DNA from: Desulfobacteraceae bacterium | GTDB taxonomy: Bacteria; Desulfobacterota; Desulfobacteria; Desulfobacterales; Desulfobacteraceae | Direction: 5' to 3' | NCBI GenBank assembly: GCA_003354055.1 | Contig: PIVQ01000484.1 | Coordinates: forward strand, 1 to 5,826 | DNA length: 5,826 nucleotides | In this document: piece after piece, positions 149 to 5,826 of the stretch | How the letters are laid out: each line of letters opens with the position of its first letter | How positions within the stretch are numbered: the stretch's first letter is position 1 | Notes under the pieces: model-generated | The model's input: only the letters and a program-made list of their open reading frames with translations | What the model was told of the DNA's origin: nothing | The model's database searches: none | Program-made: the position numbers and the translations under genes

Positions 149-1147
149 TCACCTGCGAAGAACGGATTCAAGCTGCTTAATGCTTCTGGCCCGGCCCATG
201 GCAATGACCTTGTCCATGGGGTCAAGTTTTGTCTGGGCCTTGGGGTTGAACACCATCTGCCCCTCTTTTTTCTGGATGGCAATGATGATCAGGTTCATCT
301 TTTTCCGTATCCCGGATTCAATCAGGGCAAGGCCGGCAAGCCTGGATTTCGGATGGACAAGGATCTCTTCGATCTGGATATCTTCGTCATCATCTGAAAA
401 GGCCATTTCAAGGAATTTGATGACTGTGGGGCGGAGGATGGCATGGGCCATGCGCCGTGCACCGATGTCATAGGGGGAGATGACCTTGTCGGCACCTGCC
501 GCACTCAGGGTCTTTTTGACGGAATCCTGGCCTGCCCGGGCCACAATAAAAATATCCGGGTTCAGCTGTTTCGCAGTCAGTACCAGAAATACATTTTCAG
601 CATCAGTGGCCGTGACCGCGATAATTCCCTTGGCCCTTTTGATCCCGGCCCGGAGCAGGAGATCCTCATCAGTGGCCTCGCCGAGAAGATAGAGAACCCC
701 GTCGTTTATCATGATTTCCGAACAGGCCTCATCACGCTCAATAATCACCACGTCAATATACTTTTGAACCAGGTATTGGGTCAGCAGTCTGCCGATTCTG
801 CCGTAACCGCATACGATGTAATGACCTTTCAGTTTTTTAATCTGGGTGTCCAATTTATGCCTCCCTAAAATAAGTCTTATCCTTCCCTCTACCAGGAATT
901 TGATAATATCGCTCATGAGGAAGAGAAAGAAACCGCCGCCCAGAAGAATGAGGATCAGGGTGAATATACGTCCGGCAGAACTAACCTCATGAACTTCCCC
1001 GTATCCCACAGTGGCAATGGTGATAATGGTCATATACAGGGCATCCATGAACCGCCAACCCTCAATGAACATATATCCCAGACATCCCACGCCGGTCAGT
1101 GTGCCAAAAAGGAGCAGGGACATGATGATTTGCTTAGACCGATTCAT
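149..1147 (-). CDS. two-TM potassium channel with cytoplasmic RCK (TrkA-N/TrkA-C) domain
   Basis: This 332-residue protein has the MthK-like architecture of a K+-selective pore joined to a ligand-sensing gating ring. Visible parts are a first membrane helix at about 7-28, a pore loop ending in the selectivity filter TVGYG at 46-50 (followed by E51, where many channels have D), and a second helix at about 60-87 with a glycine hinge (GGG 70-72). A basic linker follows. The RCK-N Rossmann fold starts at about 108 with the GYGRIG signature (G114, G116, G119) and has an acidic residue ending strand 2 (E137), typical of nucleotide-binding TrkA-N domains. A TrkA-C (RCK-C) domain covers about 251-332. 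An acidic SDDDED stretch at 251-256 lies between the lobes and could be a cation site (inference). Such channels sit in the inner membrane as tetramers and pass K+ under control of Ca2+, nucleotide or pH; the ligand cannot be read here. The ATG at 1147-1145 has GAGG four bases upstream. The family call is firm. No specific gene name is assigned. Confidence 0.93.
   Translation of the reverse strand: MNRSKQIIMSLLLFGTLTGVGCLGYMFIEGWRFMDALYMTIITIATVGYGEVHEVSSAGRIFTLILILLGGGFFLFLMSDIIKFLVEGRIRLILGRHKLDTQIKKLKGHYIVCGYGRIGRLLTQYLVQKYIDVVIIERDEACSEIMINDGVLYLLGEATDEDLLLRAGIKRAKGIIAVTATDAENVFLVLTAKQLNPDIFIVARAGQDSVKKTLSAAGADKVISPYDIGARRMAHAILRPTVIKFLEMAFSDDDEDIQIEEILVHPKSRLAGLALIESGIRKKMNLIIIAIQKKEGQMVFNPKAQTKLDPMDKVIAMGRARSIKQLESVLRR
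851..866 (-). promoter_or_regulatory. internal Shine-Dalgarno plus TTG start for a free RCK subunit (candidate)
   Basis: Within the channel gene the minus strand reads AGGGAGG (866-860), a 6-base spacer CATAAA, then TTG (853-851), which is in-frame codon L99. The match to the anti-Shine-Dalgarno is stronger than at the annotated start. L99 lies after the second membrane helix and about nine residues before the RCK-N fold, so initiation here would give a soluble 234-residue RCK protein. MthK is known to make such a subunit from an internal Met (M107). That this site is used is inference: the SD bases also encode G95-R96, and TTG is a weak start. Confidence 0.45.
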
Positions 1148-1515: not shown

Positions 1516-3615
1516 ATGGCCTTGAAACAAAAATCGGATAACAGAATAATACTGAAAGAAGGTGCCAGGATTGTTGTTCTGGGGGGCGGTCCTGCCGGTG
1601 CTTTTTTTGCGTTTCATCTGCTCAGACAGGCGGGAAAAGCCGGTAAAAAGATCCGCGTGACCATTATTGATAAACGAATGGCATTGGCCCGGCACAGGGC
1701 TGTAGAAGAATCAAGGGGATTTGCCGTAGCAGAATCCGGGGGGGGATTTTCTGTCGAAGAATCAGAGGGATTTTCCATAGAAGAATCCCCCGGATGTAAT
1801 TATTGTGCCGGTATTGTTTCGCCGCAATTGCAGCAGGAACTGAGGCGATATAAAATCAAGCTGCCGGAGTCTGTTCTCTGCCAGAGATTTTCCCATATCT
1901 GGATCCATGGCCTCTGGAAAAATTTCCCCCTGAAAGTGCCGGTGGGACAGCATGTGGTCTCCGTGTTCAGGGGCACTTTGCCCGCCAGTAGAAACACCCG
2001 GATCCAGGGATTGGATGCCTTTCTCCTGAAAAAAGCGGTTGCGGCCGGGGCCGAACTTGAGACGGCAGAGGCATTGAATATTGAGTACTCCTCCTCAAAC
2101 CGCCCCTGTCTGACGTTGAAAAAAAACTCTGGTGATCCGTTTACCATGGAGGCGGATTTTGTCTGTATCTGCTCAGGGGTTAATGCCGGAGAGAATCTTT
2201 TTCACTCCTTTCGAAAGATCAATCCCAGGTTTGTTCCCCCTGTGACCCGGTCTGCCCTTATTTTTGAGCTGAATCCGGGTGTCCGGTATCTGAAAAAAGT
2301 GATGGACAGGGAGCTTTACATCTTTGTGTCCGGATCAAAAACACTGGAACTTGACCATGCCGCCCTGATTCCCAAGGCAGATCATCTCACTGTGGCCCTT
2401 ATCGGAAAACGCATTGACAGGGCATCGTTTCCTGAGGATACCCAAGCGATAATCAAGACCTTTCTCTCCCTTCCCGGTATTCAGAATATCCTGCCGGGTA
2501 TTGAGAATAGGATTGCCTGTTCATGCACACCGAGGATGTCGGTCTCCCCTGCTCAGAGGCCCTACGCCCGGAGGATAGGCCTGTCGGGGGATGCCTTTGG
2601 CGCCAGGCTGTACAGGGATGGGCTTTTCTCTGCCTTTATCCTGGCCCGTTCCCTTGCCAGGACCGTAATTCACAAGGGGGTGGACGAAAAAAGCCTGTCC
2701 GGACCTTATGAGCGGGCAGGCCGCTGGCTGCATCAGGATAATACCTGGGCCAAACGGGTTATGAACCTGGTACAACTGGCCCTGAAGTCCCCGTTTGCAA
2801 GCCGGATCATGTACCAGACGTTTGCCACTGAAATGAAATTCAAACCCATGGACCAGTGGCCCATGGGAAATGTATTGTGGAAGATCGGGAGCGGGGCCGG
2901 TGATTACAAAAAGGTTTTCAGTGATCTGATGTCAGTCCCGGTCCTGCTGTCACTCCTCAGGGGCAGTGTCAAGACCATGAGGAACAGACTTACAGAGGAG
3001 TTCTTCGGCTTGAACTGGGAGGCCTATGGGAGGTATCCAACCGTTATCCTGAAGGATAAACGGACATATATAAAAGAATCTATTTCAGGACCTTTGGACA
3101 TCACGCTGGATGCCTGTCCTGAAATGGAACGGATGTATGCCATTAAAATCCGGGCATCAGCCAAAACCATATTCAGGGAATTGGGCCGATTCGGTACGCT
3201 GGAGGGTAAGTTTTTACGGCTCAGGTTTGTGGATGTCAAACGGGTATCAGGGACAGCCAACCGGGAAGGTGCGGTGGTCCGGTACCGGTTGTCACGCCTG
3301 CCCGTTGCCATGGATATTCGTCTTGGTAAATCCATAGAGGGTAAATCCCTGCTGTACGAACCGTCGGAACTCTTTACAAGGCGCGGCAGGCTTCTCTTTG
3401 ATATTACCCCCACCAGGGATGGAAACAACCGTCTGGTCATCTATACGGCCTTTGATTTCAAAAAAGGCCGCAATCCTGTGTCAAAGATGTTCTGGAGGGG
3501 GTTCAAACATGTATTCCCTGACTATGCCCATGATGTGGTCTGGAACCATGCCATCTGCTGTATAAAAGGGGAGGCTGAGAAGAGAGACCTTCAGTCTATT
3601 AAGAACAGAGACTGA
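1516..3615 (+). CDS. FAD-dependent oxidoreductase of the geranylgeranyl-reductase family with a C-terminal SRPBCC-like domain
   Basis: From the ATG at 1516 the protein has 699 residues. The N-terminal FAD-binding fold shows strand-glycine loop VLGGGPAGA (G23-G28) and strand 2 ending IIDKR (50-54). The CNYCAG motif (94-99) is a signature of geranylgeranyl-reductase-like flavoproteins, and the second FAD motif, GLSGDAFGARLYRDG and following helix, lies at 355-384. Relatives reduce isoprenoid double bonds in lipids, chlorophyll side chains or quinones; the substrate here is unknown. After a helical region (400-500), residues about 527-685 look like an SRPBCC/START-type lipid-binding fold, judged by pattern only. 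Residues 63-91 form a repeated insertion between FAD strand 2 and the CNYCAG motif. The frame is open upstream to a GTG at 1342, but that runs out of the repeat element and is unlikely. AGGGGG (1509-1514) sits only one base before the ATG and seven before an in-frame TTG at 1522, which is the alternative start. The last 25 bp overlap the convergent gene. Confidence 0.85.
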   Translation: MALKQKSDNRIILKEGARIVVLGGGPAGAFFAFHLLRQAGKAGKKIRVTIIDKRMALARHRAVEESRGFAVAESGGGFSVEESEGFSIEESPGCNYCAGIVSPQLQQELRRYKIKLPESVLCQRFSHIWIHGLWKNFPLKVPVGQHVVSVFRGTLPASRNTRIQGLDAFLLKKAVAAGAELETAEALNIEYSSSNRPCLTLKKNSGDPFTMEADFVCICSGVNAGENLFHSFRKINPRFVPPVTRSALIFELNPGVRYLKKVMDRELYIFVSGSKTLELDHAALIPKADHLTVALIGKRIDRASFPEDTQAIIKTFLSLPGIQNILPGIENRIACSCTPRMSVSPAQRPYARRIGLSGDAFGARLYRDGLFSAFILARSLARTVIHKGVDEKSLSGPYERAGRWLHQDNTWAKRVMNLVQLALKSPFASRIMYQTFATEMKFKPMDQWPMGNVLWKIGSGAGDYKKVFSDLMSVPVLLSLLRGSVKTMRNRLTEEFFGLNWEAYGRYPTVILKDKRTYIKESISGPLDITLDACPEMERMYAIKIRASAKTIFRELGRFGTLEGKFLRLRFVDVKRVSGTANREGAVVRYRLSRLPVAMDIRLGKSIEGKSLLYEPSELFTRRGRLLFDITPTRDGNNRLVIYTAFDFKKGRNPVSKMFWRGFKHVFPDYAHDVVWNHAICCIKGEAEKRDLQSIKNRD
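1702..1791 (+). repeat. in-frame degenerate 24/27-bp tandem repeat with a G8 tract
   Basis: Four units begin at 1702, 1726, 1753 and 1777 (the last partial), with lengths 24, 27 and 24 bp. The pattern is GTAGAAGAATC, a G-rich run, then GATTTTCC. They encode VEESRGFA, VAESGGGFS, VEESEGFS and IEESPG, an acidic serine/glycine insertion of about 29 residues. Unit lengths are multiples of three, so gain or loss of units keeps the frame. The second unit contains eight consecutive G (1738-1745), and slippage there would shift the frame. Confidence 0.75.
3591..3615. other. 25-bp tail-to-tail overlap of convergent genes
   Basis: The plus-strand oxidoreductase ends with TGA at 3613-3615, while the minus-strand gene ends with TGA at 3593-3591, so the last codons of each are antisense to the other. 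No intrinsic terminator fits in the overlap, and I see no strong hairpin with a T-run just inside either gene. Confidence 0.85.
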
Positions 3616-5597
3616 TCGGTTAATCGTCGTAATACACCTGCGGAAACACTACCGAGCAGCCATCGTTTGATCTGTGAAATTCCCCGTTTTCCCATGACAA
3701 TAGTGCCGTATCTTCCCCTTTGGATTTCCTGGACAAGGGGGGAGACCACATCGGTACTCCCATGGATCAGGTTCAGGGGAGTATTTTCAGGGATGCCGGT
3801 GATCTTCTTGAATAATTCCCAGCGATGGTCGCTTTTCAGGTCATGCTTTACATGGACAAAATGGAAACAAAAGGCCTTTTCTCTCATCAGGGTCTGGTGC
3901 AAAAAACGCATGATCAACAGGGTGGTATCGGAAAAATCCACCGGCACCAGAACTTTGTGCCGGCAGTTATTGGCATTGAGAAGCCCCATCATTTTGCCCC
4001 GGGTCCTGTACAACAGTCTTTCCCGCCAGGACTGATCCGGGTTTGCGGCCAGGAAGACCCGGCCGCGATTGCCTGAGTCGATTTCCTGGAAAACCGCTTT
4101 TTCCCAATTGTCCATGGGTTCCCATACCGTATAATTTTTGGTAATCCCGGCAAATCCCATGGGGTCAATAGTCGCCTGAATCCATTGGAGAAACTCCTTT
4201 CTTGATGAGTGAACCGCCTCTTCATGCCCGGGTGGGGTGAGAAACAGGACGGTGGGATGGGATTTTTTCTTACCCTTTCGGATAAGAAGAGGCAGGGACT
4301 TTTTAAATACGCTGATGTCGGTCGGGTCGGCAATGACCCACAACGCCCTGGTATTCCGGGTCAATAACTGATGTTCAAGTCTGGTTTTCATCTGCTTTGG
4401 GTTGGACCATCGACTGCAGATGAAGCCTTTTTCCAGTACCACCTGTTTCAAACATTTATTGCAATTGATACAGGTGATGATTTTTTTCCCAGGCGTTCTG
4501 GCCTTAGCCACCCATCCCGGATCGACTCTCAGGGGGCGCCCAAGACCTATGAGATCTGCGCGACCTTCCCGAAGAAGTTTTTCCGCACAGGGTGGGGTGG
4601 TGATCCTGCCGGATATAATGGTCGGTATATTTACCTTGTCTGTAAGTTGTGCCATGTCTTTTTTCAGATAGGCGGTTCCGGCCATTTTTTTTACCACCCG
4701 GGGAGAAAACAGGGAATTATAGGTACCGGCAGAGGCGGAAAGATAGGCAATGCCTGTCTTTTCAAGACACTTTGCAAAGGCAAGGGATTGGGGAAGATCT
4801 ATGCCCCCCGGGACCCATTCCCTGAGCAGAAGCCTGAATCCTACGGGAAAGCCCTGTGGCAATCTGTTTTTAATCGCTTTTACTACGGCAAGGGGGAAGG
4901 TGGTTCTTGATGAGAAATCGCCGCCAAAGGGAGGTTTTAGTTTATTTGTAAAGGGAGACAGATACTGGCAGAGAAGATAGCCATTGGCCCCGTGAAGCTC
5001 AATCATGTCAAAACCGGCCTGAAATGCCCTGGCAGCTGCAGCGGCAAAATCATGGATCACCCTTTCGTTGTCCTCGGGGGTCATGGGGTTTCGCCAGGTT
5101 TTCACCTGGTTGAACAAGGCCCTTGTCAGGCCGAACCGCTTTTCAAAGGGAAAAAATTCCATGAATTCCTTCAGGGATTCCACATTAAAGGAGAGGTTGG
5201 AACTGATAATGGGCGAGGGCAGCAACGGGCGGGAGGTTTTGGCAAACCGGCCTGCATGGTTCAGCTGTAGGCAGGCAAGCGCTCCCTCTTTTTTTATGGC
5301 AGCGGCAAGGCCGGCCAATCCCGGGATAAATTTGTCCTGGTCCGCCCTGAGGTTAAACTTTGACACCGCCCCATCCGGGGAAACCGCCGTATTGGCCACC
5401 ACCACCATACTTATGCCGGATGCTGCCAGCCTGGCATAAAAGTCTGTCATCCATGGGCTGACACGACCGTCCGTGCGGGCGAAACCCGTATGGACCGGCA
5501 GGGCAACCAGCCGGTTTTTTACCTGACAGGGTCCCAGGTCCAGGGGCGTGAAAAGCCTTGGATAAGAGGGGCTATCGGTTTTTTTATCATGGGTCAT
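3591..5597 (-). CDS. old-yellow-enzyme/dienoyl-CoA-reductase-like flavoprotein fused to tandem UspA domains
   Basis: This 668-residue protein starts with an FMN-binding TIM barrel (about 13-370). It has QLNHAGRFA (111-119), active-site H202 and N205 with Y207 in LHGANGYLL, the FGGDFSSR segment (224-231), and the phosphate-binding GLGRPLRVDP (351-360). Cysteines 376, 379, 382 and 394 follow, in the place of the [4Fe-4S] ligands of 2,4-dienoyl-CoA reductase. Full-length relatives continue into an FAD/NAD(P)H domain. Here residues about 412-540 look like a degenerate Usp domain, and 546-668 form a clear UspA domain with VPVDFSD (551-557) and the ATP-binding signature G-x2-G-x9-G-S (G636, G639, G649, S650). 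It is probably a cytoplasmic ene-reductase whose electrons come from a partner rather than a built-in reductase domain, possibly tuned by ATP or stress through Usp (inference). The ATG has AAAGGAG 11 bases upstream (5615-5609). The frame is intact throughout, with no sign of a frameshift at the fusion. Confidence 0.9.
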   Translation of the reverse strand: MTHDKKTDSPSYPRLFTPLDLGPCQVKNRLVALPVHTGFARTDGRVSPWMTDFYARLAASGISMVVVANTAVSPDGAVSKFNLRADQDKFIPGLAGLAAAIKKEGALACLQLNHAGRFAKTSRPLLPSPIISSNLSFNVESLKEFMEFFPFEKRFGLTRALFNQVKTWRNPMTPEDNERVIHDFAAAAARAFQAGFDMIELHGANGYLLCQYLSPFTNKLKPPFGGDFSSRTTFPLAVVKAIKNRLPQGFPVGFRLLLREWVPGGIDLPQSLAFAKCLEKTGIAYLSASAGTYNSLFSPRVVKKMAGTAYLKKDMAQLTDKVNIPTIISGRITTPPCAEKLLREGRADLIGLGRPLRVDPGWVAKARTPGKKIITCINCNKCLKQVVLEKGFICSRWSNPKQMKTRLEHQLLTRNTRALWVIADPTDISVFKKSLPLLIRKGKKKSHPTVLFLTPPGHEEAVHSSRKEFLQWIQATIDPMGFAGITKNYTVWEPMDNWEKAVFQEIDSGNRGRVFLAANPDQSWRERLLYRTRGKMMGLLNANNCRHKVLVPVDFSDTTLLIMRFLHQTLMREKAFCFHFVHVKHDLKSDHRWELFKKITGIPENTPLNLIHGSTDVVSPLVQEIQRGRYGTIVMGKRGISQIKRWLLGSVSAGVLRRLTDQSLFLID

Positions 5598-5755: not shown

Positions 5756-5826
5756 ATGGGCGATACCATTTTAGTGACGGGGGCCTCCGGTTTTTTAGGG
5801 TCTGCACTTTGCGTTGATCTTGCAAG
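5756..5826 (+). CDS. NAD(P)-dependent epimerase/dehydratase-like extended SDR, N-terminal fragment
   Basis: The gene starts at ATG 5756 behind a very strong ribosome-binding site, AAGGAGGG (5745-5752), and runs off the right edge after 23 complete codons. The fragment reads MGDTILVTGASGFLGSALCV and continues DLA. It shows the first beta strand and the TGASGFLG glycine motif (TGxxGxxG) of extended short-chain dehydrogenases, the group containing NAD-dependent sugar epimerases, dihydroflavonol-reductase-like enzymes and 3-beta-hydroxysteroid-dehydrogenase-like proteins. The substrate class cannot be decided from 23 residues. It is divergent from the OYE-Usp gene and could share regulation with it. 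Confidence 0.8.
   Translation, partial: MGDTILVTGASGFLGSALCVDLA

Follow-up and report, generated by a model that had tools for sequence, protein, structure and literature searches.

The window (the whole stretch of DNA analysed, 5826 nucleotides) carries on its minus strand, at 3591..5597, an intact frame of 668 amino acids plus a stop codon, in which an old yellow enzyme (OYE) barrel, a cluster of four cysteines and two Usp folds follow one another, an OYE-4Cys-Usp-Usp architecture that is near certain. An intact 668-codon OYE frame with a cysteine cluster had been proposed from a sequence-only reading of this DNA and was borne out by the open reading frame, by Pfam and by the cysteines, which are invariant in all 120 listed proteins described below. 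The FMN-type TIM barrel (Oxidored_FMN, PF00724; residues 15-367, 4497..5555, minus strand, as for all features of this gene) scores above the curated Pfam cut-off (E 2.3e-53), and its active-site signature H202-x-x-N205-x-Y207 (4977..4994) aligns with the H-x-x-H-x-Y of solved thermophilic OYEs. In that alignment, H36 occupies the place of a cysteine that has a flavin-tuning role in the thermophilic enzymes. Between the barrel and the Usp half, C376, C379, C382 and C394 form a CxxCxxCx11C motif (residues 376-394, 4416..4472), the four-cysteine linker of the FadH/NCR/TMADH class, which likely carries a [4Fe-4S] cluster, as judged from sequence; a precedent is NCR, which holds a 4Fe-4S cluster in its linker at the corresponding place according to passages of PMC6502838.

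In the C-terminal half, Pfam detected a single Usp stretch (PF00582, residues 621-658; E 4.1e-6, 27.8 against a cut-off of 24 bits), and no FAD/NAD(P)H domain was found by Pfam in the 668-aa product at E-values up to 1. Because a fold search with the whole model listed only OYE-type structures among the best 50, the C-terminal half was modelled separately, and this model matches tandem Usp structures, its two Usp units aligning as one unit. The first predicted Usp fold (residues 418-540, 3978..4346) is delineated by AF2 strands and helices and by the tandem Usp structure match, and lacks the ATP signature. The second (residues 548-668, 3594..3956) is supported by Pfam, by the AF2 model, in which residues 546-668 form a Usp fold as the earlier reading had anticipated, and by structure matches; it includes the G-x2-G-x9-G-S ATP signature (residues 636-650, 3648..3692). 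The ATP loop and the N-terminus are the least confident regions of the model. The FadH-type C-terminal FAD/ADP-binding and second alpha/beta domains were not found, the match being to tandem Usp structures instead, which supports the proposal that a Usp pair follows the cluster at the position of the FAD/NAD(P)H half of FadH. Membership in the FadH-like, BaiCD, mycofactocin and bilirubin-reductase families was rejected, all eight NCBIfam matches lying far under their cut-offs (top model, mycofactocin FadH/OYE family oxidoreductase 2: 183.7 against 793).

Convergent to this gene lies c2 (1516..3615, plus strand), predicted to encode an FAD-binding protein weakly similar to geranylgeranyl reductases. 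The mechanical ORF begins at 1342, and comparison with relatives places the likely start at the ATG at 1516. The FAD assignment comes from a borderline Pfam DAO match (28.3 against 27.9 bits) and an N-terminal glycine motif, the geranylgeranyl-reductase label from sub-threshold NCBIfam matches, and comparison with solved structures gave one match (E 0.0011). On the other side, the start of a divergent SDR gene, c4 (3-beta-HSD/epimerase-like; 5756..5826, plus strand), is cut by the window end; positions 5756-5826 translate to MGDTILVTGASGFLGSALCVDLA, which the c4 HMM matches with 33.3 bits over 23 residues. A potassium channel gene with Pfam Ion_trans_2, TrkA_N and TrkA_C domains (149-1147, minus strand) adjoins c2. 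Promoter and terminator counts in the window are close to those of shuffled sequences (7 against 5.0 and 7 against 7.0, respectively).

Conservation and distribution of the tandem fusion

Searched against 5.8 billion proteins, the window protein matched 490 at E-values up to 1e-3, of which the best 120 were listed: the window's own protein and 119 others, 52-87% identical to it. PF00724 and PF00582 occur together in 116 of these 120 proteins and PF00724 alone in 4, according to the precomputed Pfam column, and the CxxCxxCx11C motif is kept in all 120. H202 and Y207 are invariant, and N205 is present in at least 90%. The earlier description of an ATP-binding Usp pair stood for the second domain, where G-x2-G-x9-G-(S/T) falls within the last 60 residues of all 120 listed proteins, but not for the first: 1 of 120 shows the pattern in the stretch that runs from the cysteines up to the last 130 residues. 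Likewise, D554, S556, G636, G639, G649 and S650 of the second Usp are invariant, whereas the same 120-protein alignment has no invariant column in the first. Names assigned by JGI to such proteins ("2,4-dienoyl-CoA reductase-like ... (Old Yellow Enzyme family)/nucleotide-bi...") point to an annotation pipeline that recognises both parts.

Scanning 84,980 species genomes by pattern yielded 42 loci; since the scan relied on two peptide patterns, it catches near relatives and says little on other phyla. The full combination of OYE, cysteines and Usp was present in 25 (2 of them open at the 5' end), the others being 4 loci cut by contig ends, 1 Usp-less locus (L016), 5 short OYE-4Cys forms and 7 other OYEs. 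The strict ATP pattern is found in 22 of the 25 tandem-class loci and is missed by the more distant L024-L026, which have extra loop residues. Together with the shared domain order among the listed proteins, these loci confirm that the OYE-Usp-Usp fusion is a real, conserved family across related taxa, in line with the sequence-only reading. By genome title, the 25 loci belong mostly to Desulfobacterota groups, with a few MAGs under broad labels; most bacteria of the group that carries the tandem fusion are sulfate reducers, and the closest rows to the window protein on the OYE tree are labelled Desulfobacteraceae.

Each of six genomes searched whole has one full-length copy, plus other OYE matches. 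From the order of a Desulfobacula genome, 194 genomes were drawn evenly and searched; matches at E-values up to 1e-100 came from 22 of them, 13 with tandem-like proteins (E below 1e-200) and 9 whose alignments reach about residue 518 or less. Spread on plasmids was rejected: tblastn against PLSDB matched 1466 records, in none of which a single place spans 80% of the query, and the 20 listed of these have 58-76% coverage at 25.6-32.9% identity.

Sister classes and gene neighbourhood

Six of the nine shorter-aligning loci were run through Pfam, giving four OYEs with one full-length Usp and two PilZ-OYE-Usp proteins; the other three are frames of 540-541 aa. The PilZ-OYE-4Cys-Usp genes lie at L054:3197-5188 and L055:2650-4671. 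A protein search with one single-Usp member gave 4392 matches at E-values up to 1e-3, and among the 120 listed (query included) the cysteine cluster is kept in every one. The Pfam column shows PilZ in 38 of these 120 (within P0202-P0243) and not in the remaining 82, and 79 of the 82 proteins without PilZ and 27 of the 38 with it have the Usp ATP motif. The c-di-GMP motifs of PilZ are well kept, RxxxR in 36 of 38 and RxxxR together with [DN]xSxxG in 33 of 38; of the 5 PilZ proteins that do not have both, two start after the motif.

In a tree of 72 OYE cores (IQ-TREE, LG+C20 PMSF; L027 left out), the tandem proteins (24 and L016), 17 single-Usp proteins, 11 PilZ proteins and seven short forms make up one clade with support 100/100, to which neither the FadH-like enzymes nor the other short OYEs belong. 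The short OYE-4Cys proteins (L028-L032, L074 and L075; 371-403 aa, no C-terminal domain) are sister to the PilZ class (support 82/62). L016, from Desulfocicer vacuolatum DSM 3385 (10001-11260), stops at 419 aa, retaining the core and the cysteines with the Usp half missing, and its last base lies directly beside the end of c2; since it nests among the tandem members, that one assembly has apparently lost the Usp pair. Not every member needs a Usp, for both the short clade and D. vacuolatum have the core and the cysteines but no Usp. The Usp-domain tree has long branches and includes just 3 free-standing Usp sequences. A phylum-wide search of 395 genomes with the single-Usp profile gave 9 matches at E-values up to 1e-100, namely the tandem gene of G002, the single-Usp gene that G031 was already known to carry, and seven frames of 374-464 aa that match the profile only over its residues 153-440 or thereabouts. 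At one tandem locus (L021:3069-8399, plus strand), a 1776-aa open frame with no Pfam match at E-values up to 0.01 ends 7 nt before the OYE-Usp-Usp gene.

We tentatively suggest, at clearly less than even odds, that the clade is an Fe-S OYE chassis for nucleotide sensors (ATP-type Usp, tandem Usp, or PilZ with Usp) that gate redox chemistry by energy charge and second messenger; the existence of the PilZ sister class makes nucleotide regulation more plausible.

The downstream neighbourhood of the tandem gene was tabulated for 28 loci with at least 500 bases on that side, 27 of them distinct because L063 is the same stretch as L023 (L027 left out). In 11 of the 28, c2 lies within 3 kb downstream, with one gene in between at L003; at L066, it is upstream and divergent, 59 nt away. 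Near the tandem gene c2 is thus found in 12 of 27 distinct loci, L066 included, and is not within 3 kb in the other 15. In three of seven single-Usp loci (L056, L058 and L060), the OYE stop lies in a 4-nt overlap with a gene for a protein of 430-440 aa, an arrangement that may go back to one event in all three. This protein and the first part of c2 are homologues (E 6e-12 to 1.4e-10 with the c2 profile; E 1e-14 to 4e-7 with the reverse profile, the c2 of the window being weakest; hhalign probability 97.3%).

Across the 194 genomes, c2 has a match in 14 and is full-length in 9. Six of these 9 also hold the tandem OYE-Usp gene, all within the 13 tandem genomes, where 0.6 would be expected if the two were independent, although the relatedness of the genomes keeps the comparison from being a clean one; 3 of the 9 do not have the tandem form, the genes lie apart in 3 of the 6 co-carriers, and 7 of the 13 tandem-form genomes have no match to the c2 profile at E-values up to 1e-30. 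Away from the OYE gene, the neighbours of c2, some of which were run through Pfam, are mixed and point to no pathway. The c4 SDR is upstream in 6 of 30 loci (29 distinct) with 500 bases there, and directly downstream of the OYE gene at L018. The predicted FAD protein and the SDR accompany the gene in many Desulfobacteraceae besides the window. The OYE-Usp-Usp gene, c2 and c4 seem to belong together functionally, and the products of c2 and c4 probably work in one pathway with the fusion enzyme, perhaps on a hydrophobic substrate.

Two further arrangements were observed around c2 relatives. At L103:1668-3431, a c2-like protein includes a cNMP_binding domain (residues 475-558), so that a relative of the FAD partner, too, has a predicted nucleotide sensor, and is followed by an SDR-DUF2867 fusion (3404-4942). 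At L004, L006 and L008, genes of cluster c7 lie near the OYE-Usp/c2 pair, the member at L006 (4365-5498) having three Pfam Usp stretches.

Proposed mechanism and comparison with known systems

According to passages of PMC6502838, NCR takes up electrons at FAD, for which a ferredoxin-like donor is proposed, and passes them through the cluster to FMN, and in trimethylamine and histamine dehydrogenases (TMADH and HisDH) the corresponding domain binds ADP, not FAD, and the 4Fe-4S cluster passes electrons straight to ETF. The statement of the sequence-only reading that multidomain relatives carry an FAD/NAD(P)H domain here is thus right for FadH and has to be amended for TMADH and HisDH. The window protein most resembles the latter case, because, beside barrel and cluster, it lacks an FAD domain and has an adenine-nucleotide fold where those enzymes bind ADP, and by analogy with what these passages describe, TMADH/HisDH would be a better precedent than FadH. 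From this resemblance we propose FMN chemistry, Fe-S exchange with an outside carrier, and a Usp nucleotide gate or docking switch.

The protein is most likely a nucleotide-gated Fe-S ene-reductase, of which we infer the gating, the substrate and the electron partner. It would be a soluble Desulfobacterota enzyme with FMN and [4Fe-4S], bearing a UspE-like tandem Usp module where FadH-like enzymes have their FAD/NAD(P)H half. FMN would exchange hydride with a substrate bearing an activated C=C bond, and the 4Fe-4S cluster would exchange electrons with a one-electron carrier outside the chain, be it ferredoxin, ETF or the adjoining FAD protein. Since the FAD/NAD(P)H domain was not found, electrons probably enter or leave through the Fe-S cluster by way of an outside carrier, by analogy with TMADH; direct reduction of FMN by NAD(P)H, as in simple OYEs, may be an alternative. 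Binding of ATP, ADP or AMP to the second Usp would set activity or carrier docking, so that the reaction would follow the energy or stress state of the cell. Control of activity or partner choice by ATP or stress, as the sequence-only reading also suggested, is what we infer from this arrangement, and the enzyme may be one that lacks the usual electron-feeding half and is switched by energy or signalling state. To the explanation taken whole (an FMN/[4Fe-4S] ene-reductase-type enzyme, an external carrier and Usp-nucleotide control) we assign an even chance.

A less likely alternative sees in the Usp half a fixed scaffold, serving structure or dimerisation and holding a nucleotide permanently, which replaced a lost FAD domain and regulates nothing. 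TMADH and HisDH, which keep ADP at the same place as their cluster delivers directly to ETF (passages of PMC6502838), would fit such a scaffold, as would the missing ATP signature of the first Usp and the match of both modelled units to tandem Usp structures as one unit; it sits poorly with an ATP signature kept in 120 of 120 listed proteins when the first Usp has no invariant column, and with a sister class that bears the recognised second-messenger module PilZ. Signalling could also run in reverse, the OYE/Fe-S core sensing redox state or electrophiles and the Usp pair acting as output on other targets. Standalone Usp proteins are stress effectors, and the core would have two redox centres, both in keeping with this idea, but active-site residues conserved as in catalytic OYEs and the existence of core-only relatives make it improbable. 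An equally low probability attaches to the Usp pair being a docking platform for the adjoining FAD protein, which would supply flavin and an NAD(P)H site in trans as a split FadH: homologous FAD proteins stand beside two of the classes, including the changed arrangement at L066 and the overlapping operon gene, and most full-length-c2 genomes (6 of 9) also hold the tandem form, yet 15 of 27 distinct tandem loci have no c2 within 3 kb, and L016 retains c2 without any Usp. The joining of two separate genes by sequencing or assembly error was rejected as having practically no chance, no support being found for it: all 120 listed proteins are one chain, none splitting into separate genes with a frameshift at the junction, and the fusion recurs in 25 of 42 loci of other assemblies, two of which are single-contig chromosomes (L009 and L012).

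No description of an OYE-Usp family was found in the literature surveyed, which included few subscription journals and no bioRxiv preprints, and none of the literature matches listed points, by its listing, to such nucleotide-sensor control of an old yellow enzyme. An OYE-like FMN domain is named among the domains of 719 Usp-annotated Desulfovibrionaceae proteins in a 2021 study (PMC8401546, section 3.2), possibly the same or a related fusion. That section gives it one line of a domain list, without family, cysteine cluster, sister classes, context or mechanism, and no other passage of the article mentions flavin or OYE. What goes beyond the sequence-only reading is that the tandem class forms one arm of a clade of Fe-S OYEs, a kind already known, together with OYE-Usp, PilZ-OYE-Usp and short OYE-4Cys forms. 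To our knowledge, old yellow enzymes are commonly regarded as reductases that are not regulated. If the proposed control by nucleotides is true, the clade would be a metabolic redox enzyme wired directly to stress and second-messenger signals; sensor-bearing Fe-S OYEs could serve as compact natural switches for biocatalysis, and the clade gives a way to ask what the Usp domains of these bacteria sense.

Compared with NCR and the 2,4-dienoyl-CoA reductase of E. coli (FadH), the window protein has two Usp folds in place of the FAD/NAD(P)H half. TMADH and HisDH, whose substrates are amines, have an ADP domain that belongs to the three-domain architecture of NCR and FadH and is not a Usp (passages of PMC6502838). 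Set against tandem Usp proteins, the ATP signature is present in the second repeat only, and in contrast to UspE/YdaA, Rv2623 and TTHA0350, which consist of Usp alone, the window protein fuses a tandem Usp to an Fe-S OYE.
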